Shown piece by piece: positions 4,439 through 32,356 of a stretch of 33,957 bases of DNA (within the stretch, counting starts at the first letter, position 1; each line of letters opens with the position of its first letter). Under the pieces are notes generated by a model. That model was not told where the DNA came from and did no database searches. It worked only from the letters and a program-made list of their open reading frames with translations. Made by a program: the position numbers and the translations under genes. This DNA comes from Planctomycetota bacterium (lineage in GTDB: Bacteria; Planctomycetota; Planctomycetia; Gemmatales; Gemmataceae): contig JAJPHU010000186.1 of NCBI GenBank assembly GCA_021325115.1, positions 1 through 33,957 on the forward strand, read 5' to 3'.

Positions 4439-4515
4439 GCGGACAAAACTGTAGGGCAAGGGGGCAGTGTGTCTGAAAAGGACAAACGGCCCCCTTGCCC
4501 TACAGTTTTGTCCGC
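4439..4515. terminator. Long perfect palindrome, probable bidirectional terminator between convergent genes
   Basis: 27-bp perfect arms 4439-4465 and 4489-4515, 23-nt loop. Confidence 0.65.
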
Positions 4516-4536
4516 CTGTCCTTTGTTTCCTCGCCT

Positions 4537-5835
4537 TTAAACGGACGAACGAGATTTCAGTACTTTAGCGATCGCTTTTGTTAGCTGTTTCTCGCTCGGT
4601 GCGGCCAAGGCCACGGTTGGTTCATAGCCGCCTTCCCAATACGCTTGGTCCGTCGGAATGTAGCCGGGCCCCCCATCGCCGTAACCTGCCACGCACACGA
4701 ACGCATCTTTGCGCAATTCTTGGGCCTTCAATTGATACTCAATGAACGGTTCGCCTGGCAGATGCAGCACCAGCGCCTTGCCCAGATCGAGACAGGTCAA
4801 ATCGATGGGCCGTTCCAGGCGCTTCAACCAGGCCAGCTGGAAGGCAGCGTTGCCGCGCCGCGCCTTAACGGCCTTGGGATCGCCCAACACTTTGCGGCTT
4901 TCTTCTTCGCCGAAGGATTTTTCACGGCGTGGCGGCAGCTGGATCGGTTCGACGCGCCATTCCCACGAAGTCAGCGGATAGCGTTGGGTCGCCTTCCAGG
5001 CCGCTTTCAGAGCGGTGTAGACGCGATCGCGCAGCACGGGGCGATGGGCCTTGGAGCCGTCGTTGTACTTGCCGGCTGTGATGTTGCCGGCGCAGCCGTT
5101 AAAATACATTTGAAAAATCGGCGGCTCCTCGTCTTGCCGTTTTTGCCGCGCCAGGCCACAGAAATCGGCACTGACCCGACCATCTCCGTAGTAGCTCATC
5201 GGATGCACGGCATAATAGCTCAGGGCTGCCAACGGCTGCTCGTCGTTCCAAAAACTCAACGTTCTCAGCCACGGATCGATCAACCCCTCTGGCTCGGCGC
5301 GGATCTTGGGATCTTTGGTAGCGCTGTAGCGCGTAAATCGGACTTTGCCGTCCGCGCCGATAATACGGCGATTGGAAGCGACTTGCTCCACACGTGCCTG
5401 TCCGATGCCCAGGTGCGAAAAGGGCATCGTCTTCTTTAATGCTGTACGAAGCGCGTCTGCGGATTGCTGAACCACACGATCAAAAAAGGCAAGGTCCAGC
5501 GACGGCGCACCATGAACACTTTGCAACAGGCGCTCGGCCTCGGTATCGGCAAAGGGCGCGTTGTGCGGATGAACACAGTGAACGGCGACGCGCTCCGGTG
5601 TGGTGTTCGCTGCTTGCGCCAAGGCTTGACGCCAGGCTCGATTCGCCTCGTTGCGTAGACCGCACCAGTCTACGGCACACAGCACCACCGGCCTTCCTGC
5701 ACCAAGCAGGACGATACCCAAAGCACGTAGCGGATCATCGACGCCGCGCACCGGCTCGATCCAGCCGCCGCAGAGGGGATGTCCCAACGGCGGCGTGGCA
5801 TCGGATTGAAACGTTGTCAAATGCAGAGACGGCAT
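4537..5835 (-). CDS. Neutral/alkaline ceramidase-like N-terminal domain protein
   Basis: HCVHPHNAPFADTEAE, YYAVHPMSYYGDGRVSADF, FNGCAGNITAGKYNDG, LPGEPFIEYQ. Confidence 0.7.
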   Translation of the reverse strand: MPSLHLTTFQSDATPPLGHPLCGGWIEPVRGVDDPLRALGIVLLGAGRPVVLCAVDWCGLRNEANRAWRQALAQAANTTPERVAVHCVHPHNAPFADTEAERLLQSVHGAPSLDLAFFDRVVQQSADALRTALKKTMPFSHLGIGQARVEQVASNRRIIGADGKVRFTRYSATKDPKIRAEPEGLIDPWLRTLSFWNDEQPLAALSYYAVHPMSYYGDGRVSADFCGLARQKRQDEEPPIFQMYFNGCAGNITAGKYNDGSKAHRPVLRDRVYTALKAAWKATQRYPLTSWEWRVEPIQLPPRREKSFGEEESRKVLGDPKAVKARRGNAAFQLAWLKRLERPIDLTCLDLGKALVLHLPGEPFIEYQLKAQELRKDAFVCVAGYGDGGPGYIPTDQAYWEGGYEPTVALAAPSEKQLTKAIAKVLKSRSSV

Positions 5836-6822: not shown

Positions 6823-8940
6823 GTGAATGCCGCTCCTAATACACAGATCGGATCCGATCTGGAACAGGAACGCCGACGAATCGCGACTCGGCTTGAGGAA
6901 GTCGCTCGTTTGAGCGAATCGAACGTCCCCGCGGGGACGTTCTACGGCGAGATGCTCAAGCGCTTGCTGGAAACGCTGGCCGCCCCGGCTGGCGCCGTCT
7001 GGGCGCGCACTCCTCAAGGCAATTTGCAGTTGCAGTATCAGATCAACCTGAAAGAGATTGGCCTCGATCAAAACGAGGCGGCACGAGCTAGCCATGAAGA
7101 ATTGCTACGGCAAGCCGTGACACAGCCGCGGCCGTTTCATGTGCCGCCGCGTAGCGGCGTCGGCGTCCAAAATGATGGCAAACCACCGGCCGGCAACCTC
7201 ACCAATTATCTGCTGCTTATCGCTCCTGTCATCGTCAATCAGCAGTGTGCCGGACTCATCGAGGTTTGGCAAAGCGCCAACCGCCCCGCCCAGGCGACCA
7301 CCGGCTATCTGCAATTCATGACCTACATGGCCGAATTGTCCTCGCGCTATCAACGCAATCAGGTCATGGGGCATCTTACGGGGCAGCAACAGGTATGGAC
7401 ACAGCTGGAAGCGTTTGCCCGTCAGATCCACAGCAGTTTGCATCCTACAGAAGTCGCCTATCAGGTGGCCAACGAAGGCCGGCGGCTCATCGAATGCGAT
7501 CGCCTCAGCGTGGCTGTTCGGCAATACGGCTCCAAGGCCCGTATCGAGGCCGTCAGCGGCGCCGACGTGGTAGAACGACGCTCCAACCTGATTCGCCTCA
7601 TGCAAAAGCTGAGCGAACAGGTCATCAAATGGGGCGAGAAGCTGATTTTCAACGGCGTCCGCGATGACAGCTTGCCGCCCAAAGTGCTGGCGGCGCTGGA
7701 CGCTTATTTGGCTGAGAGCAATAGCAAATTGTTGGTCGTGCAGCCGCTACGCGACGAACGGGAGACAGGCAAGCGTCCGCCGCGGTCGGCGTTAGTGATG
7801 GAGTGCTTCGAGCCGCCTGCCGAGCCGCAACAGTTGATCGCACGCCTGGATGTCGTGGCCCGTCACGCCACACCGGCCTTGTACAACGCCGTTGAACATC
7901 GTCGCATTCCCGGCCGCTGGGTCTGGCAGCCGTTGGCCAAAGTGCAAGACGGTATCGGTGGCAAGGCCAAGGCCATCTCTGCTGTCGTCATCGCCCTGGT
8001 GAGTCTCCTCGTCGCCATGCTTTTCTTGGTGCCCTACGAGCTGGAGATGGATTCGACCGGCAAACTGGTGCCGTGGGCGCGGCGCGTCGTCTATGCGCCG
8101 GCTACCGGACAAATCGTGGAGTTCAAGGTCGATCCCGGAAGCACTGTCAGCGAGAAGATGGAGTTGGCCGTCTTGAACTCTCCCGAGTTGTTCAAGAAGT
8201 TCCTTGAGTTGGAATCTGCAATTGAGGGAACTCACAAAGAGGTGCAGACTGCGGATCTTCTCCGCCGTCAAGGGACGGCCAATAAAGATCAGGGCAGGGA
8301 TACAGACGATGGACTCAAAAGACAGCTCGAGCAACGTAAAAAGAAAGAGCTTGAGAAATTCATCGAGGATAACAATGCCAATCCCGGCAGGCCCGGTGAA
8401 TACTACTTGCGGGCGCCGGAGTTCACGCCGGAGGAGAAGCTGCGTGTCGGTCGTCTGGAGTGGACGGTGTTATCTGGTAACTTCAAAGATGAATGGCATC
8501 TCAGAACGGCCAAGCCTTCCGATCCGATCTTGAAGCTGGGCGCCAAAGACGGCCCCTGGGAAATCGAGTTGCGTATTCCGCAAAAACACATCAGTCAGGT
8601 GCTCAAGGGTTTTGAGTATTTGCACCGCGATACGCTTGATGTCAACTTTATCCTCCGCAGCGATCCGACGCGCAAGTATCGCGGCCTCCTCAAGCGTGAG
8701 CGCATCGCCAGTGAGGCTATTCCCAACCGCGATGAAAAGGACGAATCCGAACCAGAGGTCATCGCCTATGTCACGATCGATGATCCGAGCATCGATCCGG
8801 CCTATCGTCTGTCGCGCGAGGCGTTGACCAGCGGCACCGAGGTCCGCGCCCATGTCCGCTGCGGCAAGCACTGTATGGGCTATTCGCTGTTCTATGGCGT
8901 GTGGGAATTCATCTACGAAAAAATCGTGTTCTTCTTCTGA
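6823..8940 (+). CDS. GAF-like domain(s) - TM - HlyD-family periplasmic adaptor
   Basis: GTG start; cytosolic GAF-like region, TM ISAVVIALVSLLVAMLFLVPY, then MDSTGKLVPWARRVVYAPATGQIVEFKVDPGSTVSEKMELAVLNSPEL (lipoyl/HlyD-like). Confidence 0.75.
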   Translation: MNAAPNTQIGSDLEQERRRIATRLEEVARLSESNVPAGTFYGEMLKRLLETLAAPAGAVWARTPQGNLQLQYQINLKEIGLDQNEAARASHEELLRQAVTQPRPFHVPPRSGVGVQNDGKPPAGNLTNYLLLIAPVIVNQQCAGLIEVWQSANRPAQATTGYLQFMTYMAELSSRYQRNQVMGHLTGQQQVWTQLEAFARQIHSSLHPTEVAYQVANEGRRLIECDRLSVAVRQYGSKARIEAVSGADVVERRSNLIRLMQKLSEQVIKWGEKLIFNGVRDDSLPPKVLAALDAYLAESNSKLLVVQPLRDERETGKRPPRSALVMECFEPPAEPQQLIARLDVVARHATPALYNAVEHRRIPGRWVWQPLAKVQDGIGGKAKAISAVVIALVSLLVAMLFLVPYELEMDSTGKLVPWARRVVYAPATGQIVEFKVDPGSTVSEKMELAVLNSPELFKKFLELESAIEGTHKEVQTADLLRRQGTANKDQGRDTDDGLKRQLEQRKKKELEKFIEDNNANPGRPGEYYLRAPEFTPEEKLRVGRLEWTVLSGNFKDEWHLRTAKPSDPILKLGAKDGPWEIELRIPQKHISQVLKGFEYLHRDTLDVNFILRSDPTRKYRGLLKRERIASEAIPNRDEKDESEPEVIAYVTIDDPSIDPAYRLSREALTSGTEVRAHVRCGKHCMGYSLFYGVWEFIYEKIVFFF

Positions 8941-8957
8941 GAAATTTGTTGCACTCC

Positions 8958-9024
8958 CCGGCGAGTGGGGCGTGGGAACGCCCTGGTTTTTTCTACCGGG
9001 GTGTTCCCACGCCCCACTCGCCGG
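8958..9024. repeat. Palindromic element between two genes of the adaptor locus
   Basis: 22-bp perfect arms 8958-8979 and 9003-9024, inner stem continues with wobble. Confidence 0.65.
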
Positions 9025-9054
9025 AACTTGCTGCCGCTCCTGGAGGCTCAATCT

Positions 9055-11244
9055 ATGTTTCGCTGGATATTTGTTACACTTCTGTTGTCGGCCAGCGCCG
9101 TCGTGGCGGTGTGGGTATTAGTTCCGCACGTGAATTCGCTATCGGCGACTCAGCCGGCGCCGGCAGGCGAGGCACCGGAGAAGAAAAAACCGGCAGCCGC
9201 GCCGCACGAAAAAGCACTGCCGCCGCTGCCGCGGCAAACGGCCGCATCGATGGCAACACACAGCCAACCTGCGGTCTACATCCATCACCGAGAAGGTTCG
9301 CAGAACCTAGCCGAGCCTGTCCTCATCCCGGACTGTCCTCTCGTTATTGTCGAGAGGCAAGAAGTGGCAAGCGAGAAAGAAGGCGTGTTGCTGTTCATCG
9401 GCACCGAAGTGCTGATGGGAGAGACTGTGCCGCCGGAAAAGCAGCTTCCCGAAGCGAAATTGGGCTTTTTGGCCGTTTTGGTGGGAGACAAACCGATCGA
9501 GGGAGAAGAGTGCGTCCAGATTCCCAACGATCCTCGATACTATCGACGTGCTCGCGCCACAGACTCGTTTGAGCCGGAGAAGGTCTTTCTGCTAACAAAA
9601 AGGCAGCCGGTGCGGAAGCTCCAGGTCGGCGATCATGTCAAGCGCGGCCAACTGCTGGCCCAGGTCAATCCCGCCAAGTCTTCCGATGATGTCTCGGTGA
9701 AAATTGCCAAGCTGAACGCCGTCGAGTTTGCCCGTCAATCCGCGCACTCGATGAAAATGGAATATGGGCGCCGCTATGAGAATTACCGAGCAACCAATCG
9801 GAGTCAGCCGGGCGCCATCCCCACAGACACGCTGATGGAGACCCATTTGCAGTATGTGAAAGCCGACTCGGAAGAAAGTGTCAAGAAAGCTGAGATCGTT
9901 GAAGCTCAACGCACCCTTAATGCGGCCTGGACCGACCTGAGAATGCACGAGATCCGGGCCGCCATCGACGGTGTGATCAAGGAGATTTACAAGAACCACC
10001 AAGGCGATGCGGTCAAGCCGTATGAAGCGATCTTGCGGATTGAGAACCCGGGGCGTCTGCGTGCGGAAGGCCGCTTACCGATCGAAGAAGCACTCAAGCT
10101 CGCGGAAGGCATGACGGCTTTCATCGAGGCCAGCCGGCCGGAGGCGCCGCGACTGGTCCTCAGCGGCCATCTCGGTACGGTCAACTGTGTGGCTGTCAGC
10201 AAGGGCAAACGGCCGATCATCGTTTCCGGCAGTGATGACAAAACGCTGCGTGGCTGGGATTCTGCCACCGGCGACTTGTTGTGGACAGTGTGGCCACTGC
10301 CTTCGTCTGTCCGCGCCGTGGCCTGCACGCCGCCAACCAGCAAATATAACCTGGCCTGCTTCGGCTGTGCCGACGGCACCGTTCGCCTGATTGATTTGGA
10401 CCATCCGGAGCAGCAAAAGCTGCGCGAGATGTCCGAGCGTCATACTCGGTCTGTCCTCGGCGTGGCCTTCCGTCCCGATGGCGAGGTGATCGCTACCTGC
10501 GGCGACGATAGCCTGATCCGTTTGTGGAAGACGGAGACCGGCGATTTGTTGCGGGTTGTGCCCGGTCATGCAGGTCCCGTTACGTCGGTCCAGTTCGCCT
10601 CGGCCAAACGGCTGGTATCGGCTGGCAAAGACGGTCGCCTGATCGTCTGGGACGTGGAGGATGTGAATCGGACACACCAAATCGCCCCGCGTTTCGATGG
10701 CCGCACCGGTCAAGTCTGGACCCTCGGCGTCAGCCCGGACGGCAAAACTGTGCTGTTCGATCAAGGCAAGGAGATACGCCTCTTGACGCTGGAAAACAAG
10801 GATCTGGTCGGCACATTGCGGAATCCTTCCGACGAGATGAACTTTTCGACCATGGCCTTGTTCTCGCCAGACGGCAAGACCATCTTGACCAATCGCTCCG
10901 GCTCAGCACCCGAGAAGCTGCAACTGTGGCGCACGCCGATGACGCAAACGCGGCGCGGCTCGGAGCTGCGCCAGTTCATCTGGCAAGGCGCGGTCACCTG
11001 TGGGGCTTTCGCTCCGGAAGACAGTTCGTTCGCCGTCACCGGCACCGAGGACCATAAGGTGCTGGTTTGGACGATGCCGAGCAAGGAAGAGATCGATAGT
11101 CGACTGGAAGCGCGGCTGACACTGGTGGAAAAATACATTGACACACGAAATCGAGACGTTCGTGTTTGGGCTGAGCTGGAAGCGCCTGAATGGCTCATCC
11201 CTGGAATGCGGGCCACCATGGTCGTGCTGCCGCCGCGAAAATAA
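9055..11244 (+). CDS. HlyD-family periplasmic adaptor with embedded WD40 repeats
   Basis: N-terminal signal/TM MFRWIFVTLLLSASAVVAVWVLV; RQPVRKLQVGDHVKRGQLLAQVNP; WD40 (LSGHLGTVNCVAVS...IVSGSDDKTLRGWDSATGDLL...VWTMPS); RDVRVWAELEAPEWLIPGMRATMVVLP; RBS ggagg at 9042. Confidence 0.82.
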   Translation: MFRWIFVTLLLSASAVVAVWVLVPHVNSLSATQPAPAGEAPEKKKPAAAPHEKALPPLPRQTAASMATHSQPAVYIHHREGSQNLAEPVLIPDCPLVIVERQEVASEKEGVLLFIGTEVLMGETVPPEKQLPEAKLGFLAVLVGDKPIEGEECVQIPNDPRYYRRARATDSFEPEKVFLLTKRQPVRKLQVGDHVKRGQLLAQVNPAKSSDDVSVKIAKLNAVEFARQSAHSMKMEYGRRYENYRATNRSQPGAIPTDTLMETHLQYVKADSEESVKKAEIVEAQRTLNAAWTDLRMHEIRAAIDGVIKEIYKNHQGDAVKPYEAILRIENPGRLRAEGRLPIEEALKLAEGMTAFIEASRPEAPRLVLSGHLGTVNCVAVSKGKRPIIVSGSDDKTLRGWDSATGDLLWTVWPLPSSVRAVACTPPTSKYNLACFGCADGTVRLIDLDHPEQQKLREMSERHTRSVLGVAFRPDGEVIATCGDDSLIRLWKTETGDLLRVVPGHAGPVTSVQFASAKRLVSAGKDGRLIVWDVEDVNRTHQIAPRFDGRTGQVWTLGVSPDGKTVLFDQGKEIRLLTLENKDLVGTLRNPSDEMNFSTMALFSPDGKTILTNRSGSAPEKLQLWRTPMTQTRRGSELRQFIWQGAVTCGAFAPEDSSFAVTGTEDHKVLVWTMPSKEEIDSRLEARLTLVEKYIDTRNRDVRVWAELEAPEWLIPGMRATMVVLPPRK

Positions 11245-11259
11245 TCGAAATGGAACCGA

Positions 11260-11309
11260 GCCGCGACCGTAAGAGAACAGACTGCTTACCGCTCCCTTAC
11301 AGTCGCGGC
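11260..11309. repeat. Imperfect palindromic repeat (gccgcgaccgtaagggagcgg-type)
   Basis: 21-nt arms 11260-11280 / 11289-11309, 17/21 complementary. Confidence 0.6.
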
Positions 11310-11329
11310 CCTGCTGGAATCCTGTACGC

Positions 11330-13903
11330 ATGGAAACCACCACCCCTGCATCGGAACTCGAACGACGCAAACAATTGCGCTTGCGCCTGCGCCGGGATCT
11401 CATCATCGAAGCACAGAAGTACGAAGGCCGTACCTACCATGTCGTCAAAGATCCCGTCAGCCTGCGCTACTATCGTCTCAAAGACAACGAGTATTTCCTC
11501 TTGCAATTCCTCGATGGGAAACACACCCTTGAGGAAGCACAGAAAGAATACGAGGCACGCTATCGTCCCGATCGCCTCAAACTGGAGGATGTCGAAGCGT
11601 TCGGCCAACAACTCATCAACGCTGGTCTGGCCCAGAATGAATCGCCACGCGCCGGCAAGCAGCTCTACGAGCAGCGCAAAAAACGGCGGCGCAACGAATG
11701 GATGCAAACACTGACCAACATTCTCTATATCAAAATCCCTGTTTTCGATCCGGATTGGCTCTTGAAGCGCATGCTCCGGTGGCTGGGCTGGATCTTCACG
11801 TTTTGGTTCTTCGCTCTCAGCGTCGGCCTGATGTTGGCGGCGGCAGGCCTGGTGGCCACCCACTTCGAGACATTCCGCGCCAAGCTGCCGGAGCAGCATA
11901 TGTTCTTCCGTTTCCAGACCATTGCCTACATGTGGGCGGCCCTGGGTGCGGTCAAAATCATTCACGAATTCGGCCATGGACTTAGTTGCAAGAAGTTTGG
12001 CGGCGAAGTCCACGAGATGGGAGCGCTATTGTTGTGTCTGTCGCCGGCCCTGTACTGCAACGTCTCCGATGCCTGGACACTGCCGAATAAATGGCACCGC
12101 ATCATTATCAGCGCTGCTGGTATCTATGTCGAATTGGTCATCGCTGCCATCGCCACATTCGTGTGGTGGAATAGCGCTGCTTACCCGTTCATTAATAACT
12201 TGGCCTTGAGCTTGATGGTAGTGTGCAGCATCAGCACGGTGGTCTTCAACGCCAATCCGTTGATGCGTTACGACGGCTATTACGTTCTGGCCGACTGGCT
12301 GGAGATTCCCAACCTGCGTGAGCGCTCTAATCGCTTCCTCAAGAACCTGGTGCTGCAATATTGCCTGGGGATCGAAGTGGTGCCGGAGCCGTACATGGCG
12401 TTGTGGCGACGCATCTTGTTCGTCTCGTATGCCATCGGCAGCTACATCTACCGCTGGGTAGTTACGTTCGCCATCTTGTGGTTTCTGTATTCGTTCCTTC
12501 GGCCTTACAAACTGGAAGTTATCAGCCAAATGTTGGCCCTGGGTGCGGCGGCATCGATGGCCGGCTGGCCGCTGTATCGCCTGGGCAAAGCGATTTACAA
12601 GCGTGGGAGAATCCCGGACATGAAGAAATGGCGTGTGTTGGCCAGCACCACGGTCGTGACCGGCCTGGTGTTGTTCGCCTGCCTGGTACCTGTGCCCGTC
12701 AGCCGCATTCGCGGCCCGGCCCTGGTGCTGGCAGACCCAAACCCGTCGGCCACTGGCAAAGTGTATGTCCGCCGCGACGGCATCTTGACCAAGCTCAACG
12801 TTCGCCCCGGCGATCATGTCGAGAAAGACGAGGTCATCGCTGAGTTCCGCGATCCCGAATTGGAAGCCGAGCTACTCAAGGCCCAGATCGAGCGCGAGGA
12901 AGCAGATTGGCACCTGAAGCAGCTGGAAGACAAGCTGCGGCAGACCCATGATCCCGACGAGAAGAATAAAATCATCACAAAGATGAGCGAACTGGACGCG
13001 AAGTATGAGGCAGCCAAAGCAGTGGTACGTGCTCTGGAGTGGATACGTGATGAGGATCTGAAGCTGCGTGCGCCTTGTTCGGGCACAGTCGGCGTGGCCC
13101 CCTCGGTCGAGGACATCACGCGTTTATTCCCCGCTGATCCCCTCAATCCCTTCTGCACCATCAACAATCCCGGTCAGGTTCGCGTGTGCCTGCCACTGAT
13201 CACGCCGGACTTCAATCGACTGCGACAAGACCTCGAACAACTGTCACCCGCCGCCGTCCAGACACGCCGGCTGATGAGACACCGCGTCACTGTTTCTTAC
13301 AATAACACGCGCCTGGCCGATGTTCTGGCCGATCTGAAGAAGCAAGTTAAGGACCTGAAATGGACGTTTGACAAAGGTGCCGGCGCCATCGAGGATCTGA
13401 AGGTTTCCTACCAGGCCAAGGAGCAACGTCTGGGCATGGTGCTCGACGCCCTCTTTGGGCGCATGGGGCTCGGCTTTGTGATCGTTTCAGAGCCAGACAG
13501 CCCACAAGATGGCCATTTGCTGGTCCGTCCTGGGTCAGAGCGCGGTGAGCCGCAGGGCGGTCGTCCGCTGGCCGCCCTCGACGTCACCATCCGTATCAAG
13601 GGCCGCGATAGCCAGACGTGGAAGGGCAAGATCCGCCAACTGCCCGAATCGGAGGCCAAGACTGTGCCGCCGATGCTGTCCAACCGCCAAGGCGGTCCCG
13701 TGGCCGTCAAGGCGACCGTAGGCAACGAAAAACAACTGGTTCCCTCCACACAGCAATTCTTGGTTTACGTTGAGATCGTCGATCCAGACGAATCGATCAT
13801 GCCAGGTACGGCGGCGCAGGTGAAGATCTATTGTCAGCCGGAAACTTGCGTCCACTGGCTGTGGCGCTGGCTCAACGAGACCTTCGATCTCGGCCTGATG
13901 TAA
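11330..13903 (+). CDS. PqqD-like domain - M50 site-2 protease - HlyD-like adaptor - STN-like domain protein
   Basis: N-term DPVSLRYYRLKDNEYFLLQFLDGKHTLEEA; HEFGH zinc motif; NPLMRYDGYY; KVYVRRDGILTKLNVRPGDHVEKDEVIAEFRDPELEAELL; VTVSYNNTRLADVLADLKKQ... Confidence 0.82.
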   Translation: METTTPASELERRKQLRLRLRRDLIIEAQKYEGRTYHVVKDPVSLRYYRLKDNEYFLLQFLDGKHTLEEAQKEYEARYRPDRLKLEDVEAFGQQLINAGLAQNESPRAGKQLYEQRKKRRRNEWMQTLTNILYIKIPVFDPDWLLKRMLRWLGWIFTFWFFALSVGLMLAAAGLVATHFETFRAKLPEQHMFFRFQTIAYMWAALGAVKIIHEFGHGLSCKKFGGEVHEMGALLLCLSPALYCNVSDAWTLPNKWHRIIISAAGIYVELVIAAIATFVWWNSAAYPFINNLALSLMVVCSISTVVFNANPLMRYDGYYVLADWLEIPNLRERSNRFLKNLVLQYCLGIEVVPEPYMALWRRILFVSYAIGSYIYRWVVTFAILWFLYSFLRPYKLEVISQMLALGAAASMAGWPLYRLGKAIYKRGRIPDMKKWRVLASTTVVTGLVLFACLVPVPVSRIRGPALVLADPNPSATGKVYVRRDGILTKLNVRPGDHVEKDEVIAEFRDPELEAELLKAQIEREEADWHLKQLEDKLRQTHDPDEKNKIITKMSELDAKYEAAKAVVRALEWIRDEDLKLRAPCSGTVGVAPSVEDITRLFPADPLNPFCTINNPGQVRVCLPLITPDFNRLRQDLEQLSPAAVQTRRLMRHRVTVSYNNTRLADVLADLKKQVKDLKWTFDKGAGAIEDLKVSYQAKEQRLGMVLDALFGRMGLGFVIVSEPDSPQDGHLLVRPGSERGEPQGGRPLAALDVTIRIKGRDSQTWKGKIRQLPESEAKTVPPMLSNRQGGPVAVKATVGNEKQLVPSTQQFLVYVEIVDPDESIMPGTAAQVKIYCQPETCVHWLWRWLNETFDLGLM

Positions 13904-13985: not shown

Positions 13986-14618
13986 ATGGCCAGTTATCGC
14001 GGACACCTGACCTTCGCTGGTCTGCTCGGCGCCGGTTACGGCAGTCTCGCTTTGCTCGAAGGCAACGGGGACTGGGGACCGGCCCTGATTGCAGCGGGAC
14101 TGACGACGCTGGGCGGGCTGCTGCCCGATCTCGATAGCGACAGCGGCGTACCGGTGCGCGAGTTATTCGGCGCTGCCGCTGCTGTCGTTCCTATCCTGCT
14201 CTTCGATCGCGTCAAAGACCTGTGCCAGCAATCCACCGAGCAAACCCTGTTTGTCCTGGCGGTTCTTTACCTCTTTATCCGCTACGTTTTGTCGTATATT
14301 TTCAAAAGTTTTACCGTCCATCGCGGCATGTTTCACAGCGTTCCTGCGCTTCTGATCGCTGGCCTGGCGACGTATCTGCTCTATCCCAGCGATGACGTGC
14401 GGCGGCGCCTGTTCCTGAGCGGCGCCACCATGCTCGGCTTTTTGTCACATCTGATCCTCGATGAGATTTACAGTGTCGATTTCCTGGGAGCACGGCTGCA
14501 TCCCAATAAATACGCTGGCAGTGCCTTAAAATTTTTCTCGAAATCATGGCTGGCAACGCTGACAACGTATCTGTTATTGGGATTCTTGGCCTGGCGCGCG
14601 TGGCTGGATGGACGCTAA
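13986..14618 (+). CDS. Metal-dependent hydrolase, YdjM/DUF457-like membrane protein
   Basis: LGGLLPDLDSDSG, VHRGMFHSVPALLIAGLATYLLY, FLSHLILDEIYSVDF. Confidence 0.75.
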   Translation: MASYRGHLTFAGLLGAGYGSLALLEGNGDWGPALIAAGLTTLGGLLPDLDSDSGVPVRELFGAAAAVVPILLFDRVKDLCQQSTEQTLFVLAVLYLFIRYVLSYIFKSFTVHRGMFHSVPALLIAGLATYLLYPSDDVRRRLFLSGATMLGFLSHLILDEIYSVDFLGARLHPNKYAGSALKFFSKSWLATLTTYLLLGFLAWRAWLDGR

Positions 14619-14812
14619 TCCATACTGATAGAGGAGCCTCCTAAACGGAGACCACTCGTCTGATTGACGCCGCTGTACTGCTTGTGGCGGCAATGCCGTT
14701 GCTATTGGCAGGGCCGCCAAGGAGAGTAAAGCGTCGAAAATCGCATCGGTAAATGAAGTAGTCGAGTCGTTTGGAGGGAGCTTTCTCTCCATTACCAAGT
14801 TGTGGAGCAACA

Positions 14813-16036
14813 TTACAGGACAAGCGCCTCATAATCGACAGGATGCTCCTTATCGATACGCGGCAAGTTCAGTGAGATGACTTCTGGATATTTCTGCGCT
14901 GCCCCGGTGTTGAAAACAACCACTTCCTCATCGGCGTCGATCTTGCCGGCCGTGATCAACTGCTCCAGGCAATCGAAACAAACCGCCGTTTCCGGACAGA
15001 TAGAGATGCCTTCCAGACTCATACCGCGACGCATCCATTCGACGATGCGTCCTTCGCGACCGGCGCTGGCGCAACCGCCACTGGCGCGAATGGCATCGAG
15101 CATCATAAAATCGCCGACTGCTGCCGGCACCCGCAGACCACTGGCAATCGTATGTGCATTGGCAAATGTCTCGGCGAAGCGCTCGCCTTTCTCGAAGGCC
15201 CGCACAATCGGCGCACAGCCCTCGCTCTGGCAACTGACCAGACGCGGCAAGCGCTCCGAGCGCAGCCAACCTAATTCGCGCAACTCAGTGAACGCCTTCC
15301 ACATGCCGATCAGGCCGGTGCCGCCACCGGTTGGATACAGGATCACGTCTGGCAACCGATATTCGGTTTGCTCAGCCAACTCCAGGCCCATCGTCTTTTT
15401 GCCTTCGAGGCGATACGGCTCCTTGAGCGTGGATACGTCGAACCAACCGAGTTTCGCCGTACCTTCGCGGACAATTCGGCCGCAATCGGTGATGAGTCCG
15501 TTGACGAGAAAAACGCGCGCCCCCGCCAGGTGTGCCTCAATCTGGTTGATGATCGGCGTATCTTGCGGCATGAACACATAAACTTCCATGCCGGCCCGAG
15601 CGCCGTAAGCGGCCAGAGCACCGCCGGCATTGCCCGCGGTCGGAATGGCCAAGCGACGCAGGCCGAGATGCTTGGCCATGCTAACCGCCATGGTCATCCC
15701 GCGACTCTTGAAACTGCCGCTTGGCAGCTGCGATTCATCTTTGATGAACAGTCGTCGCAATCCCAACGCTTGCCCCAGACGTGGACAGGGCAACAGCGGC
15801 GTCATGCCTTCGCCAAGCGTCACCGGCTCCACATCCAGCGGCAAAGGCAGCAATTCCCGATAGCGCCATAGGCTCGGTGGCCGAGAGGTAAAGGTGTCCG
15901 GCGTGACGGCACGGCGCACAGCCGGCAGATTGTAGCGGACCCAGAGAGGGCGTCCCTGATGTACCGTGTGGACCTGCCCGGCGGGAAATTGAGTGCCATC
16001 GAGGGCGCTTTCCAGATGGGTGACGTAGCTGTTCAT
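14813..16036 (-). CDS. thrC: Threonine synthase (PLP-dependent)
   Basis: LGEGMTPLLPCPRLG, IKDESQLPSGSFKSRGM, PTAGNAGGALAAYGARAG, PTGGGTGLIGMWKAF. Confidence 0.87.
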   Translation of the reverse strand: MNSYVTHLESALDGTQFPAGQVHTVHQGRPLWVRYNLPAVRRAVTPDTFTSRPPSLWRYRELLPLPLDVEPVTLGEGMTPLLPCPRLGQALGLRRLFIKDESQLPSGSFKSRGMTMAVSMAKHLGLRRLAIPTAGNAGGALAAYGARAGMEVYVFMPQDTPIINQIEAHLAGARVFLVNGLITDCGRIVREGTAKLGWFDVSTLKEPYRLEGKKTMGLELAEQTEYRLPDVILYPTGGGTGLIGMWKAFTELRELGWLRSERLPRLVSCQSEGCAPIVRAFEKGERFAETFANAHTIASGLRVPAAVGDFMMLDAIRASGGCASAGREGRIVEWMRRGMSLEGISICPETAVCFDCLEQLITAGKIDADEEVVVFNTGAAQKYPEVISLNLPRIDKEHPVDYEALVL

Positions 16037-16107
16037 GGTGTTTCCTCAAACGGACGACAGAAGCAGGACGGAGTAAGTTCGAACGGCGTCATCTACCGTG
16101 AGTACAG

Positions 16108-23648: not shown

Positions 23649-26225
23649 TCAGCTGCCGAACATCTTGAGGACGTAATTCTGAATGTCCTGGTAAAATACG
23701 AACAACATAAGGAAACCAATGGCGGCCAGGCCGATATAGGTGGCGATGACGCGCGCCCTTTCGGTGGGCGGCCGACCGCGCAGCTTCTCGTAAATCAAGA
23801 ATACCATGTGTCCGCCATCGAGAATGGGGATGGGCAGAAAATTGACCACCGCCAAGTTGATGCTGATAATGCCCAAGAACAAGAGCAGTTCGAAATTGCC
23901 GGCCTGAGCGTTGGCGAAAGCCTCCATGCCTATGCCGATTGGGCCGGCCGTCCCCTTGAGCGGTATGCGTCCCGTGGCCAAGCTGCGCAGCTGCAAGTAC
24001 ATGAGGACAATCATGTCACGCGTTTCGCGACCGCCCATAATCAGTGCTTCGCCGAGACTGTCGGCTTTTTGGAGCGTATAGTCATTGAGCAAGTTAAGAC
24101 CACGCGAAGCTAACGGCCAACTACGGTCCTCCTCGGCGGTCAGAGTCAGCGGTTCCGGTACATCCCCATCCGGACGCTTGACCTTGACCTGCATCTTCTT
24201 ATACTCGCTTCTCTGCAGGTACCAGAAGGGCTGTGCCCAACGATCGTGTACCAGGTCGCCATTCTGTTCGGATACCAACGGGAACCAGAGCGACCAGCCC
24301 AACTCTCGGGTGAAGCGCGAATGCTCCCAAACACGGTACTCCGTGAGCGTATCGTCCTTTTTCAGTCCGACTTGGGCTGCCGGCGAACCCGGCTTGACCT
24401 CGACAATTTGGCTGAGGATCCAGTAGGCAACGCCGAGCTGAGGGATGGGTAAAGGCGAGGCCGCCCCGAGCGGCGCCTCAGCGTCGTTGTTCCAGCGCTC
24501 ATCCCAATCGACTGGCTCGCAGGTGATGTCCTTGGCGGTGCGCTCCGCCTCGCGGCGCAACGTCAGGATCACTTTTTTCTTGCCCGGCTGCCGGGCCGCC
24601 TGCACCAGTTCGGAAGGCAAGCGTTCAGGATCGAGATCTTCTTGAGCGTACAGCTTCTCGCCGTCCGCACCGATCATAACCACTTTGATGAGTTCATCGC
24701 CTTTTTGGACACCGGCGCGGGCGGCGGACGAGCCTTCGCGGACGGCGGCCACCTTGCCCATCTTCATGCGCATGCCGAAGGTGAAGTGATAAGCTGGCGG
24801 CACAAACAGGTTGACAAGGTCTCCGTTGGCCGGCGGCTGGCGTAGCGACGTGTTGTTGGGATCGCCGCGCCGAACCTGGATAACGATCGGCATTCCGGCC
24901 AGCTGCCGTAGACGAGCCTGAAAAACGAACGGATCGCGCAGATCACTACTGCGGGTGGAACCGGTGTCTCGCCGGCCGCGCCGTGGATCACGTGGCAGTT
25001 CGCGGATACGAAAAGGATTATAGGAGCCGGCCTCTTGCACTTCGGTGCAACCGATGATGGCGTCGTTCCACTGGAAACCCTCCAACGGCACTTCACGGTC
25101 AATAGCTTTGGCTTTGTCGCTGCTTCCCTTTGGCAAAACGCGAACGATCATCTTCTTGCCACGCAACGCCAAGACGCGCCGGCTCAACTCCTGATAATCG
25201 AATGTACCGGCCTGGGGATCGTGCTTGATCTCCGTGATCGATTTTGGATTATCGGGATCGGTAGTAGCGATGATAATCTCGTCTTGGTTGACGGGGACAG
25301 GGCGGGCCGCAGCAGCGGGACTGTCTTTGAGTACGGGAAACACATCAAGCTCTCTTTCCGGTTTGGGCGGCAGCCGCAGTTGCAGCGGCGGCGACACGCC
25401 TACAACCGGAACCTGATCATTGGCCTCTCGGCGCGGTAGCAAATGGACCGTTTGCTCGCCCTCTTCTTCGCCGTTGTCGCCGTATTTCTTGATGGTGAAG
25501 GCCAACTCCTCACCCTTGCTCGAGAGAGCCACCTTGCGCTTCAGCGTCTTGAACGTGGGATTGGCGATGCCAGCGAGCTTGGTGATGAGGGTGCCGCTGG
25601 GAATACCTTTTTGCCACAACGCTCCACCGGCATCGACACGACCGACCACGGCAGGCTGATCGGGGATGCCGTGATAATAATACACCACGATGAACAAAAT
25701 ACAGCCGAGCAACACGTTCATAAGGACGCCGGCCGAGATGATGAGCATGCGCTGACCGACCGTCTTGTTCTTGAATGAGCGCGGATAGTTCTCGTCTTCT
25801 TCGGCTTCCAGACCCTCGCCGACCATATTGACGTAGCCACCCAATGGCAGTACGGCGAGTTTGTAGGTAGTCTCGCCGCGCTGGAAGCTGCAACCGGGCA
25901 GAGCGGGACCGAAGCCGATGCTGAACGTCTGCACATGGACATCGCACCATTTGGCGGCCAAGAAATGCCCCAGCTCATGAATGAAGATGACAAAACCGAT
26001 GCCGAAAACGACCTTGGCAGCGGACCAGACGCCTTCCAGTCCAAGCTTATACCAGATCAGGCCGACAGCAGCGCCCAGAAGGACCAGATAGACGGCATTG
26101 TTGGCCAACCAGGCGGCCGGCGTCAAAGACGGAGCCTCGGCGAGCCGGGTTGCGTCCGCGCCCGGAGATGAAGTCTCAGCCGGTTTTACTTGATCGATGT
26201 GGTTTGGGTTCGGAGACTGATCCAA
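23649..26225 (-). CDS. rseP: RseP-type site-2 zinc metalloprotease with PDZ domains
   Basis: FVIFIHELGHFLAAKWCDVHVQTFSIGFGP; NFLPIPILDGGHMVFLIYEKLRGRP; candidate TTG start at 26225 (ORF open to 26321). Confidence 0.9.
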   Translation of the reverse strand: MDQSPNPNHIDQVKPAETSSPGADATRLAEAPSLTPAAWLANNAVYLVLLGAAVGLIWYKLGLEGVWSAAKVVFGIGFVIFIHELGHFLAAKWCDVHVQTFSIGFGPALPGCSFQRGETTYKLAVLPLGGYVNMVGEGLEAEEDENYPRSFKNKTVGQRMLIISAGVLMNVLLGCILFIVVYYYHGIPDQPAVVGRVDAGGALWQKGIPSGTLITKLAGIANPTFKTLKRKVALSSKGEELAFTIKKYGDNGEEEGEQTVHLLPRREANDQVPVVGVSPPLQLRLPPKPERELDVFPVLKDSPAAAARPVPVNQDEIIIATTDPDNPKSITEIKHDPQAGTFDYQELSRRVLALRGKKMIVRVLPKGSSDKAKAIDREVPLEGFQWNDAIIGCTEVQEAGSYNPFRIRELPRDPRRGRRDTGSTRSSDLRDPFVFQARLRQLAGMPIVIQVRRGDPNNTSLRQPPANGDLVNLFVPPAYHFTFGMRMKMGKVAAVREGSSAARAGVQKGDELIKVVMIGADGEKLYAQEDLDPERLPSELVQAARQPGKKKVILTLRREAERTAKDITCEPVDWDERWNNDAEAPLGAASPLPIPQLGVAYWILSQIVEVKPGSPAAQVGLKKDDTLTEYRVWEHSRFTRELGWSLWFPLVSEQNGDLVHDRWAQPFWYLQRSEYKKMQVKVKRPDGDVPEPLTLTAEEDRSWPLASRGLNLLNDYTLQKADSLGEALIMGGRETRDMIVLMYLQLRSLATGRIPLKGTAGPIGIGMEAFANAQAGNFELLLFLGIISINLAVVNFLPIPILDGGHMVFLIYEKLRGRPPTERARVIATYIGLAAIGFLMLFVFYQDIQNYVLKMFGS

Positions 26226-27388
26226 CGGCCTACCTCCTGTCGCGCCCAACGATCGCAAGCACTCAACTCGGCCAGCGTCGGCGTCGGGCTGTAATGATGA
26301 TGATCCAAAGCCGCGCGGCAAGCGCGGGAAATATCGAGAAAATCCAGGTCGCCCCGCAGGAAGCGTTCGACAGCCGCCTCGTTAGCAGCGTTGAGCACAG
26401 CGCCGCAGGTTCCGCCGCGGCGGGCAACCTCATATCCTAATTGTAGGGCCGGAAACGTTTCGTGATCGGGCTGCTCGAAGTGCCAGGCCGACAATTCGCG
26501 CCAGTTCAGCCGTCGCGCTGGGCCGGCCACGCGCTCGGGATAGGTCAGGGCGTATTGGATCGGCAAACGCATGTCTGGAGGCGACAGCTGGGCCAATACC
26601 GAGCCGTCCTGAAATTCAACGAAGGAATGAATGACTGATTCTGGATGGATGATGACCTCGATGCGCTCCGGCGGCAAACCAAACAGCCAGCGGGCTTCGA
26701 TAACCTCCAGCGCCTTGTTCATGAGTGTGGCCGAGTCAATGGTGATTTTCGGCCCCATGCGCCAGGTTGGATGATTCAGAGCTTCCGCGACCGTAACGTC
26801 AGCCAATTCTTCTCGTGTTCGGCCGCGGAAGGGGCCGCCGCTGCCGGTTAGTACGATGCGCTCGACGGCATCGGACGGACTGCCTTGCATGGCCTGGAAA
26901 ATGGCGCTATGCTCGCTATCAACCGGCAAGAGCCGGCCGCCGCGGCGCGCAGCCAGGTCGGTGACAAGCGCGCCAGCGAGGACCAGCGTTTCCTTGTTGG
27001 CGACAGCGACGGTTTTGCCAGCTTCCAGGGCAGCCCAGGTACCCAGTAGCCCCGCCGCGCCGACGATGGCTGTGACCACAATGTCCACGTCTGGATCTTG
27101 CACCATCTCGGCGACGGCCTCGGGGCCATAGAGCAGCCGACAGCCAGGCGGCAACTGGGAAGCATCCATTTGTTTGGCCGCCGCGGCATCGGTCAGCGCC
27201 ACCCAACGCGGCCGATAACGCTGGGCCTGGCGCAACAAGGCGTCGCTATTGGAATGGGCACTGAGTCCCTGCACTTCCAGACGGCCGCTCAGATGGTCCA
27301 CGACGTCGAGGCAATTAGTGCCGATCGAACCGGTGGAACCAAGAACGACAATCCGGCGGCGCGCAGACGTAATGCGGCTGACATTCAT
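26186..27388 (-). CDS. dxr: 1-deoxy-D-xylulose-5-phosphate reductoisomerase
   Basis: RRIVVLGSTGSIGTNCLDVV; VANKETLVLAG; VDSEHSAIFQ; LTGSGGPFRG; HPTWRMGPKITIDSATLMNKALEVIEA. Confidence 0.97.
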   Translation of the reverse strand: MNVSRITSARRRIVVLGSTGSIGTNCLDVVDHLSGRLEVQGLSAHSNSDALLRQAQRYRPRWVALTDAAAAKQMDASQLPPGCRLLYGPEAVAEMVQDPDVDIVVTAIVGAAGLLGTWAALEAGKTVAVANKETLVLAGALVTDLAARRGGRLLPVDSEHSAIFQAMQGSPSDAVERIVLTGSGGPFRGRTREELADVTVAEALNHPTWRMGPKITIDSATLMNKALEVIEARWLFGLPPERIEVIIHPESVIHSFVEFQDGSVLAQLSPPDMRLPIQYALTYPERVAGPARRLNWRELSAWHFEQPDHETFPALQLGYEVARRGGTCGAVLNAANEAAVERFLRGDLDFLDISRACRAALDHHHYSPTPTLAELSACDRWARQEVGRWISLRTQTTSIK

Positions 27389-27443
27389 GGCAGGCATTGT
27401 AGCCCGTCTCGCTGCAACCCTGCAAGACGATTGAGGAATGGCC

Positions 27444-27527
27444 ACGAGCCGGAAGCGTAAGCGATGGCAAAACATCCGTCACTTACACTTCCGGCTCGTT
27501 ATACCGTCGCGAACGCTTCCGGCTCGT
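27444..27527. repeat. Three copies of a 24-nt repeat acgagccggaagcgtaagcgaYgg (one +, two -)
   Basis: 27444-27467 (+), 27476-27499 (-), 27504-27527 (-). Confidence 0.75.
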
Positions 27528-30500
27528 TACTCGGTGACGGCGGGCGGCGGCCGATAGCCGGTCTGCGTTTCTTCCTCTTCGGCCTGGATAATGATGCGCG
27601 GCGTCACCATGATGAGCAAGCTCTCGGCCGAGCGCCCGTAGCCGATGTTGCGGAACAGACGGCTCAGATAGGGGATCTTGCTCAGCACCGGCGGGCCAAA
27701 TTCATTGCGGCCCTCGGACAAACGTTTCAGACCGCCCATCAGCACGGTGCCGCCGTCCGGCACCGCCACGGTTGTGTTCACCGAGACACGCGACAGGCGC
27801 GGCTGCTGGATGAACTGGGTGAACACCACGGGCTGGCCGGTTGCTGTGCCGTCGAACAGAGGGAAGATCGGCGTCACTACCGGGAACAGGTTGACTTCGC
27901 CGTTGACTACGTTGGCCAAGCTGGGCGCCAGCGACAGACGCACGAAACGGCGATCGCCGGAGATGACGGCGTTGATGGTCAGGATGATATTCAAGGGGAA
28001 CAACGTGGTGATGGGATTGTACACCACTTGGCCGTAGCCGCCGTTGACCACCGAGACACCAATCGTGAAGAACTGGTAGTCCTGGACAGCGATGTTGGCC
28101 GTCTGCCCGTTGAACAGCGTCAGCTTGGGCGCCTGCATAACATTGGTACGAGTATCGCCAGCTACCGCTTCCATGAACAGGAACACCTGAATGTCGCTGA
28201 GGAATGCCAGGCCCATCGTCAGGCCGCCGTAGCCGGGGATGCCGGGGTAGCCACCAAACGGTGGCACAGCCTGCGGATAGGTCAGCTGCGTGATCGGAAT
28301 GTTCAGGTCGCTCGTCAGGGTGCCAGCCGGCGTCAAACCGGAGACCAGGTTGTTGGGGGCGAAGAAGTTGATGTACGCCGGATTGGCAAACTGGCCGGAG
28401 ACCAATTCCGGCTGGACTTGCAGCGCGGACCGGCTCTTGTTGAGGATGTTCATGTTGAAGTTGACGCCAATACGCTCGAAGAAATCCTCAGCGATGCTGA
28501 TGAACTTGACCTCGACGGCCACTTCCTGATCGATCAGGCGCCGCAAGGCGTTGAGCAGATCCTGAACCTGGTCCTGAATGTCTGGCGTCTGATTGACAAC
28601 CAAGGCCAGGGTCAGCGGATGGAAATCGATGGTCCCTGATCCGCCTTGCTCGGCCCAGCTGTGCGGCGCGATGGTGTTGGTGATTAGTTTGATGAGCATC
28701 TCTTCATGCGTCTGCGGACGCTGCTTGGTCACCTGGACATTGCTGCCCGATGCTCCCTCGGCGAAGCTGCTCGGCGACGCATTGGCCTGCGAGCTGCCAG
28801 GCGGCGCGGCCGGCAGGCTGACCGGCTGGCCGCCCGGCATTCCGGTCATGGCAGTCGGGGGCATCGTTGCGCTGAGCGCTTGATTGACATTGATCATGCC
28901 CAGCTGCGTTGTGGCGTCCGGCGTCGTACCAACCTGGCCGAAATTCTCCACGGCGATGACCAGGTCGGCCACCGGATAGACCACTTGCTTGAGCTTGCCG
29001 CGTGCCTGATCTTCCGTGGTGATTTTCAACACATCGTCGGACACGACATAGGTGAGGTGCACCAGACCCAACACCAATTTCAACGCCGATTTGAGAGAGA
29101 TATTGTCAAGTTTGATCGTCACCGGCGCGTCCAGCTGAATCCCTTTGTCGGCCAGGGCCGGCTCGTCAATGAAGATGTTGATACCCTGATCGCCGCGGAT
29201 GTAATCGATGACCTCGCGCAACGGCTGGTTGGTGCAGCTGAGACTGATCGGTGCCGTCAGCTTGCGCTCAATGTTGCGCTCTTCCGTCGAGATGCGCTGC
29301 GGAGATACGCCTTCCAGCGACTTGCGGCTTTGGATTCTCCGGCGACGCCCTTCATCTTTGGTGAAGGTGATGTCGTTCGAGACCGCATCCGGATCGCCGA
29401 TGTCGTCTGTACCGTGCATCGCTTCGATGAACACGTCTTCCTTGCGTGCCTTGTCATTCTCGTACTGAGAATGGTTGCGCTGGTACTTGGCCATGGTGAT
29501 GGCGGCGGTGGCCATCGGATTATCCGGATCCAACTCCTTGATCCGCAGCGCCACCATTTCCGCTTCGGGATACTTGGCGTCGTGGAACAACTCGTTGTAC
29601 TGCTTCATCAACTGGGCGATGTTTTTCTGCTTGACCTGCTCGGCGTTCTTGGCTTTGGCCATGTCGCTCTTGACCTTCCGTGATCGTTCATCGAAGCGGC
29701 TGTTGGCCAGTTCGGACTGCGCCTTGAGGAGCTGGAACTGTTGCAGGCGCGAATCGATCGGCCGCCGCAGCATCGCCAGCTGAGCCGGATCCAGCTGCTC
29801 CTCTGCCAGCCGGGCGAGATATTCCTGGAGCATGTCCACGGCCACATCGGTCTGTCCGGTGCGGAAGCGTTCCAGGGCTTGCGCCTGAACGTTCAGCCCT
29901 TCGGTGCGGAGTTGCTGGAACTTGACTTCGCGCAAAGCGCGTGTACGGGCCAGCAGCGATTGTCCTGGATCATCAGTGGCGCGGGCTTGTCCTTCCCTTG
30001 CTTGCCCTTCGGACTGGTAGGCACTGGTGAGGGCAATGCCGTTGCTGCGCGCACCGGGCTGCATCTCCGGCGTGTTGAGTATCTCACGTAGCCGGCCGCG
30101 GCGTCGTTCGTCGAGTTTGTTGGTATCGATGCTGGCCAGGATCAGATTAGCCCGACGATAATCGCGGTGCTGATAGGCCACAACGGCCTCATCAAAAGTG
30201 CGATTAGCTCGCCGCCGATTCTGCGCGTCCTCCTCGGCATCGATGGTGCGCAGCACGGCCAGGCCGGCCTCACCGGCGCCGAGCTTGACAGCTTCCTCAG
30301 CGAAACGCCGCGCGTTGGCTGTCTGACCGCTGCGTAGCTCCAAACGGGCCTGATCGAGCAACTGCTCAAAGTTCTGCGTTCGGAGTTCGGAATTCGGAGT
30401 TCTAAGCTGTGATTTCTCAGACCCCGGAACGTGGGACTCGGCACGGACGAGAGTGGTACCGCCGCCGCGCAGTTGATTGACCATCTGCATGGCGGCGTTG

Positions 30501-32320: not shown

Positions 32321-32356
32321 TGATTGCACCAGCTCTCCATCGGTCAATCCCCCCAT

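Follow-up and report, generated by a model that had tools for sequence, protein, structure and literature searches.

Three consecutive genes of a planctomycete, denoted here A, B and C, probably encode the inner-membrane and periplasmic core of a secretion system that is linked to a short SecA ATPase (SecA2), lacks an ABC transporter and exports large extracellular proteins carrying the N-terminal LEPR-XLL tag, an assignment derived from sequence comparison. A broader proposal, which we consider plausible and put forward tentatively, is that these genes represent a distinct, widespread secretion system of Gram-negative bacteria, in which a PqqD-M50-HlyD protein reads and cleaves the N-terminal LEPR leader, and giant proteins are driven through a conduit of three adaptors and TolC by a dedicated short SecA, without an ABC transporter. 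Giant surface proteins with a conserved tag at the N-terminus are encoded in planctomycetes and many Proteobacteria, the largest of the annotated plasmid genes reaching about 12,700 codons; the reading given here is the first suggestion of the cargo of this machine and of the way the cargo is recognized.

Gene organization and domain architecture

The window, that is, the entire stretch of DNA analyzed (33,957 nucleotides), corresponds to contig C329 of the draft genome G000, which has a size of 5.6 Mb. The best 80 matches of a genome-contig scan come only from Planctomycetota, the closest named relatives among them being Gemmataceae MAGs; the wider spread described below is taken from plasmids.

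A, B and C lie on the same strand, with gaps of 24 nt between A and B and 85 nt between B and C (Table 1). A preliminary description of this DNA had proposed three co-directional genes with an HlyD-type adaptor on each and no transporter gene in the flanks. The former is confirmed by the ORFs, the domain matches and the AF2 models, and the latter is borne out by the scanned ORFs of the window, among which there are no ABC, MFS or RND genes. The modules it had assigned, namely GAF plus TM in A, WD40 in B and PqqD plus M50 in C, are upheld as well; the STN-like segment of C is real, with a weak resemblance to STN. In a separate part of the window, the minus strand (23649-26321, 26186-27475 and 27527-32356) encodes an RseP-like M50 protease that has PDZ domains and whose gene overlaps dxr; a secretin of 1609 aa comes next.

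Table 1. Coordinates of genes A, B and C and of their domains and motifs in the window
Feature	Position	Strand	Evidence
A: tandem GAF, one TM and HlyD/MacA-type adaptor, 705 aa	6823..8940	+	ORF; family GAF and HlyD matches; AF2/Foldseek
A: two GAF-like domains, about residues 34-330, predicted cytoplasmic	6922..7812	+	family profile, AF2/Foldseek
A: transmembrane helix, residues 385-403	7975..8031	+	hydropathy, one strong TM
B: N-terminal membrane anchor and HlyD adaptor split by WD40 propeller, 759 aa	8965..11244	+	
B: WD40 propeller within the barrel region of the adaptor	10159..11064	+	alignment, tblastn
C: PqqD (RRE-like), M50 site-2-type protease and HlyD adaptor, 857 aa	11330..13903	+	
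C: PqqD/RRE-like winged-helix domain, residues 37-100 by domain match	11381..11638	+	PF05402, AF2
C: M50 catalytic HEFGH, residues 212-216	11963..11977	+	H212, E213 and H216 invariant, 29 homologs
C: second M50 motif NPLMRYDG, residues 309-316	12254..12277	+	N309, P310, L311, D315 and G316 invariant
C: lipoyl/barrel-sandwich and coiled-coil hairpin of adaptor	12692..13243	+	
C: STN-like insert, about residues 636-745	13244..13573	+	pLDDT<50 in AF2
C: C-terminal barrel strands of adaptor, resumed past the insert	13574..13900	+	

The window copy of A has no significant Pfam GAF match, so the GAF assignment is based on its family and its fold. PF01590 (GAF) is matched by 18 of the 25 members of the A family, the profile of the family recognizes histidine-kinase GAF domains, and the AF2 model (pLDDT 85.9) resembles the tandem GAFs of PDE5 and PDE6 together with the MacA/MexA adaptors. 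Because the single transmembrane helix comes after the GAF domains, these are predicted to reside in the cytoplasm.

B, which starts with the membrane anchor, matches both RND_mfp/HlyD_3 and WD40 repeats. The propeller is inserted into the adaptor rather than appended to it, given that the last adaptor strands resume behind the propeller in the alignment. The WD40 domain is present in B of Gemmatales and of one further family of the class; elsewhere, it is missing from the B homologs, which are plain adaptors of about 300 aa.

The PqqD domain of the window C scores slightly short of the PF05402 cut-off (E=2e-4, 21.9 bits against 23.4); 15 of the 29 members of the C family match PF05402, and the AF2 model displays the winged-helix order. 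In other systems, the PqqD fold is a reader of leader peptides, and RREs bind RiPP leaders, which pair with the beta3 edge in structures of RRE-leader complexes. The M50 domain (match at residues 202-289) retains the HExxH and NPxxRxDG motifs invariant in 29 C homologs, and its core is membrane-embedded according to the AF2 model and hydropathy. The barrel-sandwich adaptor is matched at residues 442-640 and 749-857. In the AF2 model (mean pLDDT 81), membrane helices separate the PqqD domain from the adaptor; seven membrane-spanning helices, as counted from this model and hydropathy, would leave PqqD on the cytoplasmic side and the adaptor on the periplasmic side.

Alignment of C with its homologs in the family runs over residues 4-638, stops and restarts at 750-856, which identifies the intervening STN-like part as an insert; only members of the window's genus (G000, G002, G003) have it. 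The nearest relative of the insert is encoded beside gyrA in the same genome by a stand-alone ORF of roughly 150 aa (~154; on contig C327, at 4509-4973 of the extracted locus), which matches PF07660 at 2e-4, short of the curated cut-off. The insert is a recent domain acquisition. It occupies the adaptor region that corresponds to the position of WD40 in B, and the two might be lineage-specific docking surfaces.

Conservation of the gene set and the associated genes

Conservation of A-B-C across dozens of genomes rules out chance association. A survey of neighborhoods across planctomycetes finds the triad recurring as a set, as the preliminary description had envisaged: in 20-kb neighborhoods, the order and the strand are kept through Gemmatales and the class, and by tblastn the parts of A, B and C occur together and in order in nearly all Gemmatales loci, including some high-GC loci where ORF calling alone had missed B. 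C is matched in 58 of 59 relatives, in a few of these (e.g., G001, G008, G025) through the region of the STN-like insert only. At E<1e-20, C is present in 46 of the 201 sampled genomes of the phylum; matches short of this threshold, being generic M50 or HlyD, were left out of the counts. Three draft genomes count against the export reading: G001, from the genus of the window, has neither A nor C and keeps SecA2 and a LEPR-type protein; G025 likewise has neither and keeps the short SecA; and G029 has A and B, with C found nowhere in the assembly.

In distant planctomycetes, a short SecA of about 630-740 aa adjoins C, and the C clusters also hold DUF3467, TolC and A/B genes. A profile search of the 201 genomes yields, among the matches listed, short SecAs in about 30 genomes, 29 of them C-positive (p=6e-22), and about 19 C-SecA pairs no more than 6 kb apart, in 16 genomes; the short SecAs were picked by frame length, and these counts are approximate. 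The genome of the window encodes a short SecA on contig C309 (698 aa; SecA_DEAD, 4.7e-105; no significant wing-scaffold match), which is probably the missing motor, along with one DUF3467 protein (C279) and a large number of OEP genes, none of which is linked to the triad. In Gemmatales, SecA2, TolC and the tagged genes are likewise separate from the triad, which counts against the export reading.

In alphaproteobacterial plasmids, the genes run giant gene, DUF3467, A, C, SecA-like, B, TolC, with members absent in some records; those of Burkholderia and Escherichia coli show the arrangement giant gene, TolC, B, A, C. The annotated plasmid clusters contain no ABC, RND or MFS translocase within the module. 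No SecA2 was found next to C in the plasmid loci of Thalassospira, Magnetospirillum and E. coli, which again counts against the export reading. DUF3467, the small protein that recurs at the start of the module, is possibly a chaperone. The Methylosinus plasmid gene annotated as a prepilin peptidase (14180-16096 of the extracted locus) encodes a SecA_DEAD protein (E=1e-103). The search with C matched 18 Escherichia plasmid records; on one E. coli plasmid (NZ_CP081687.1), a giant Ig-like gene with a degenerate LEPR tag is followed by TolC, two HlyD genes and C.

The LEPR-XLL tag as a candidate export signal

LEPR-XLL (NF012209), also described as Planc_extracel (PF07595), is a short N-terminal motif of giant or surface-type proteins encoded beside the module. 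The consensus is [LVF]ExLE-x-R-x-LL-[SDN]A, with basic residues ahead of it; the leaders are basic before the motif and have no strong hydrophobic core. The planctomycete leader set was chosen by the motif, and therefore its consensus is not independent evidence.

The distribution of the tag follows that of C. Among the 201 genomes of the phylum, 22 have both C and LEPR, 24 C only, 2 LEPR only and 153 neither (Fisher 1.3e-14), so that C is present in 22 of the 24 genomes with LEPR. The association persists at the level of families (p=1.7e-7) and within the families that include both C-positive and C-negative genomes, where all 9 LEPR-positive genomes carry C against 4.5 expected (p=7e-4), with genomes inside one family treated as exchangeable. 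For PEP-CTERM, another short surface tag that served as the control, the odds ratio is 1.7 (p=0.07), and the within-family signal is absent. Two classes of genomes count against the export reading, namely the 24 of the 46 C-positive genomes without a LEPR match over the cut-off of the insensitive 24-aa model, and the 2 LEPR-positive genomes without C.

LEPR-tagged genes lie close to C in the planctomycetes G047, G092, G163, G210, G215 and G240. On proteobacterial plasmids, the tag is present in all 8 giant neighbors examined, namely those of Pseudosulfitobacter, Methylosinus, Alisedimentitalea, Thalassospira, Pontibrevibacter, Mesorhizobium and Burkholderia, with such variants as FEPRVLLSA and LEPRLLLSA, and, in the degenerate form LESRQLFDGA, that of E. 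coli. In one of the eight, the gene for a giant calcium-binding protein on NZ_CP123586.1, the LEPR leader is found in frame upstream of the annotated start, which appears to have been set too far downstream. LEPR-type proteins of the window's own genome are encoded on contigs C139, C201 and C365, unlinked to the triad.

Large proteins bearing a LEPR-type tag at the N-terminus are a more likely cargo than a small peptide. The sensing, cleavage and export assembly conceived in the preliminary description stands to the extent that there is one conserved, export-flavored envelope system whose PqqD and M50 domains suggest that a peptide region is recognized and cleaved; the idea of small-peptide cargo does not fare as well, the LEPR co-occurrence favoring large proteins.

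Relationship to known systems

The module had been outlined computationally by Kamneva, Poudel and Ward in 2015 (PMC4452313) as a combination of GAF-HlyD, M50, HlyD and a secondary SecA_DEAD protein, related to type I secretion (T1SS). These authors proposed that SecA is the ATPase and M50 the membrane pore, and described the role as "completely unknown", with no substrate reported (PMC4452313). The operon of Methylobacterium extorquens AM1 is META1p2402-2399 (PMC4452313). The triad is accordingly a known one by description, though not by function, and the label "uncharacterised" given to it in the preliminary description has to be withdrawn in that sense. The system of the window shares with this module the GAF-HlyD, M50(+HlyD) and HlyD/biotin_lipoyl proteins and the association with SecA_DEAD and sometimes OEP; the secondary SecA_DEAD of the 2015 module, linked or not, lacks all or part of the wing-scaffold (PMC4452313), as does the unlinked SecA on C309. 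The window stands apart through the WD40 propeller within B, the STN-like part of C and a SecA2 gene away from the triad. The main text of PMC4452313 has no LEPR, PqqD or WD40, and a search of the open-access literature found no paper linking the module to LEPR cargo, a PqqD domain or a WD40 variant. Compared with the 2015 outline, our analysis contributes the likely LEPR cargo, the PqqD fold of C and the WD40/STN-like variation of the Gemmatales type. LEPR-XLL and Planc_extracel, formerly just a motif, are here tied to a machine as its proposed export signal, and linking the orphan tag to the 2015 module assigns a candidate function to both.

With type I secretion (HlyB-HlyD-TolC), the module has in common the HlyD-type adaptors, the TolC partners (TolC in homologous clusters, OEP genes in the window's genome), giant RTX/Ig-like cargo and the fact that no hydrophobic N-terminal signal is seen. 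However, type I secretion employs an ABC transporter and a C-terminal signal, whereas the module combines three adaptors, an N-terminal tag, a SecA-like ATPase and M50; there is no ABC partner in the scanned window ORFs or in the homologous clusters, and hence we do not class it as T1SS. Exosortase/PEP-CTERM likewise pairs a dedicated membrane enzyme with a short tag on many proteins but differs in that the tag is C-terminal and the enzyme unrelated; nor does PEP-CTERM track C.

Proposed mechanism and alternative explanations

We rate each of the enzymatic steps of the putative export pathway lower than the export of LEPR-tagged proteins as a whole. By analogy with the RREs that bind RiPP leaders, the cytoplasmic PqqD/RRE-like domain of C could bind the LEPR leader; the M50 core might then hold the leader in the membrane and cut at or near its ...LLSA end, freeing or licensing the cargo. 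Synteny and co-occurrence suggest that SecA2 would drive translocation, either via C itself or via SecYEG, and fold and synteny suggest that A, B and C would build, from their adaptor portions, a conduit leading across the periplasm to a channel of the TolC family. Binding of a small ligand to the tandem GAFs of A in the cytoplasm may gate the machine, and additional docking surfaces on the periplasmic side may be provided in this lineage by the WD40 propeller of B and the STN-like part of C. If this scheme is correct, it represents an export route that joins Sec-type and type I-type parts, with a leader reader in the style of natural-product biosynthesis as its gate.

C could instead be a sorting or anchoring protease, exosortase-like in function, such that the LEPR proteins reach the periplasm otherwise, M50 merely trims the tag and the adaptors position M50. 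The tag is indeed short, the M50 catalytic residues are invariant and some clusters have no adjacent SecA. We nevertheless consider this unlikely: three adaptors, TolC and SecA2 in the same clusters point to a conduit and, with an N-terminal tag and no hydrophobic signal peptide, an alternative export route is not apparent. There is little probability, too, that PqqD and M50 mature a small peptide that the adaptors export, as in a RiPP-type system. C does have a PqqD domain, and it resembles the daptide metalloprotease, YydH and LiaK in PqqD-M50 layout and motif: among curated models, it scores highest against that of the daptide intramembrane metalloprotease (NF041824; 185 bits, 1.8e-54, over PqqD and M50), followed by the epipeptide protease LiaK. 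Both scores, however, are far under the equivalog cut-offs of 300 and 225, respectively; C differs further in its fused HlyD adaptor and large-protein partners, and no RiPP enzyme is found among the scanned window ORFs or the labelled neighbors of the module, and the proteins associated with the module are large LEPR proteins instead.

Equally improbable is that A, B and C serve as the adaptors of a type I secretion system or a conventional tripartite pump whose ABC or RND transporter is encoded elsewhere: the folds are those of HlyD and MacA, and the genome of the window encodes RND pumps, but the plasmid modules lack an ABC, RND or MFS translocase, whereas the SecA-like ATPase recurs. Most doubtful is regulated intramembrane proteolysis, in which a GAF ligand would trigger M50 cleavage of an anti-sigma factor or a similar protein, with the adaptors as scaffolds. 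GAF and M50 do share one operon; yet there is no sigma or anti-sigma gene among the scanned neighbors, the window has a separate RseP-like M50 with PDZ domains, and the association with the cargo is left unexplained. On this evidence, weighed rival by rival, RiPP export, an ordinary tripartite pump and pure signaling are rejected.
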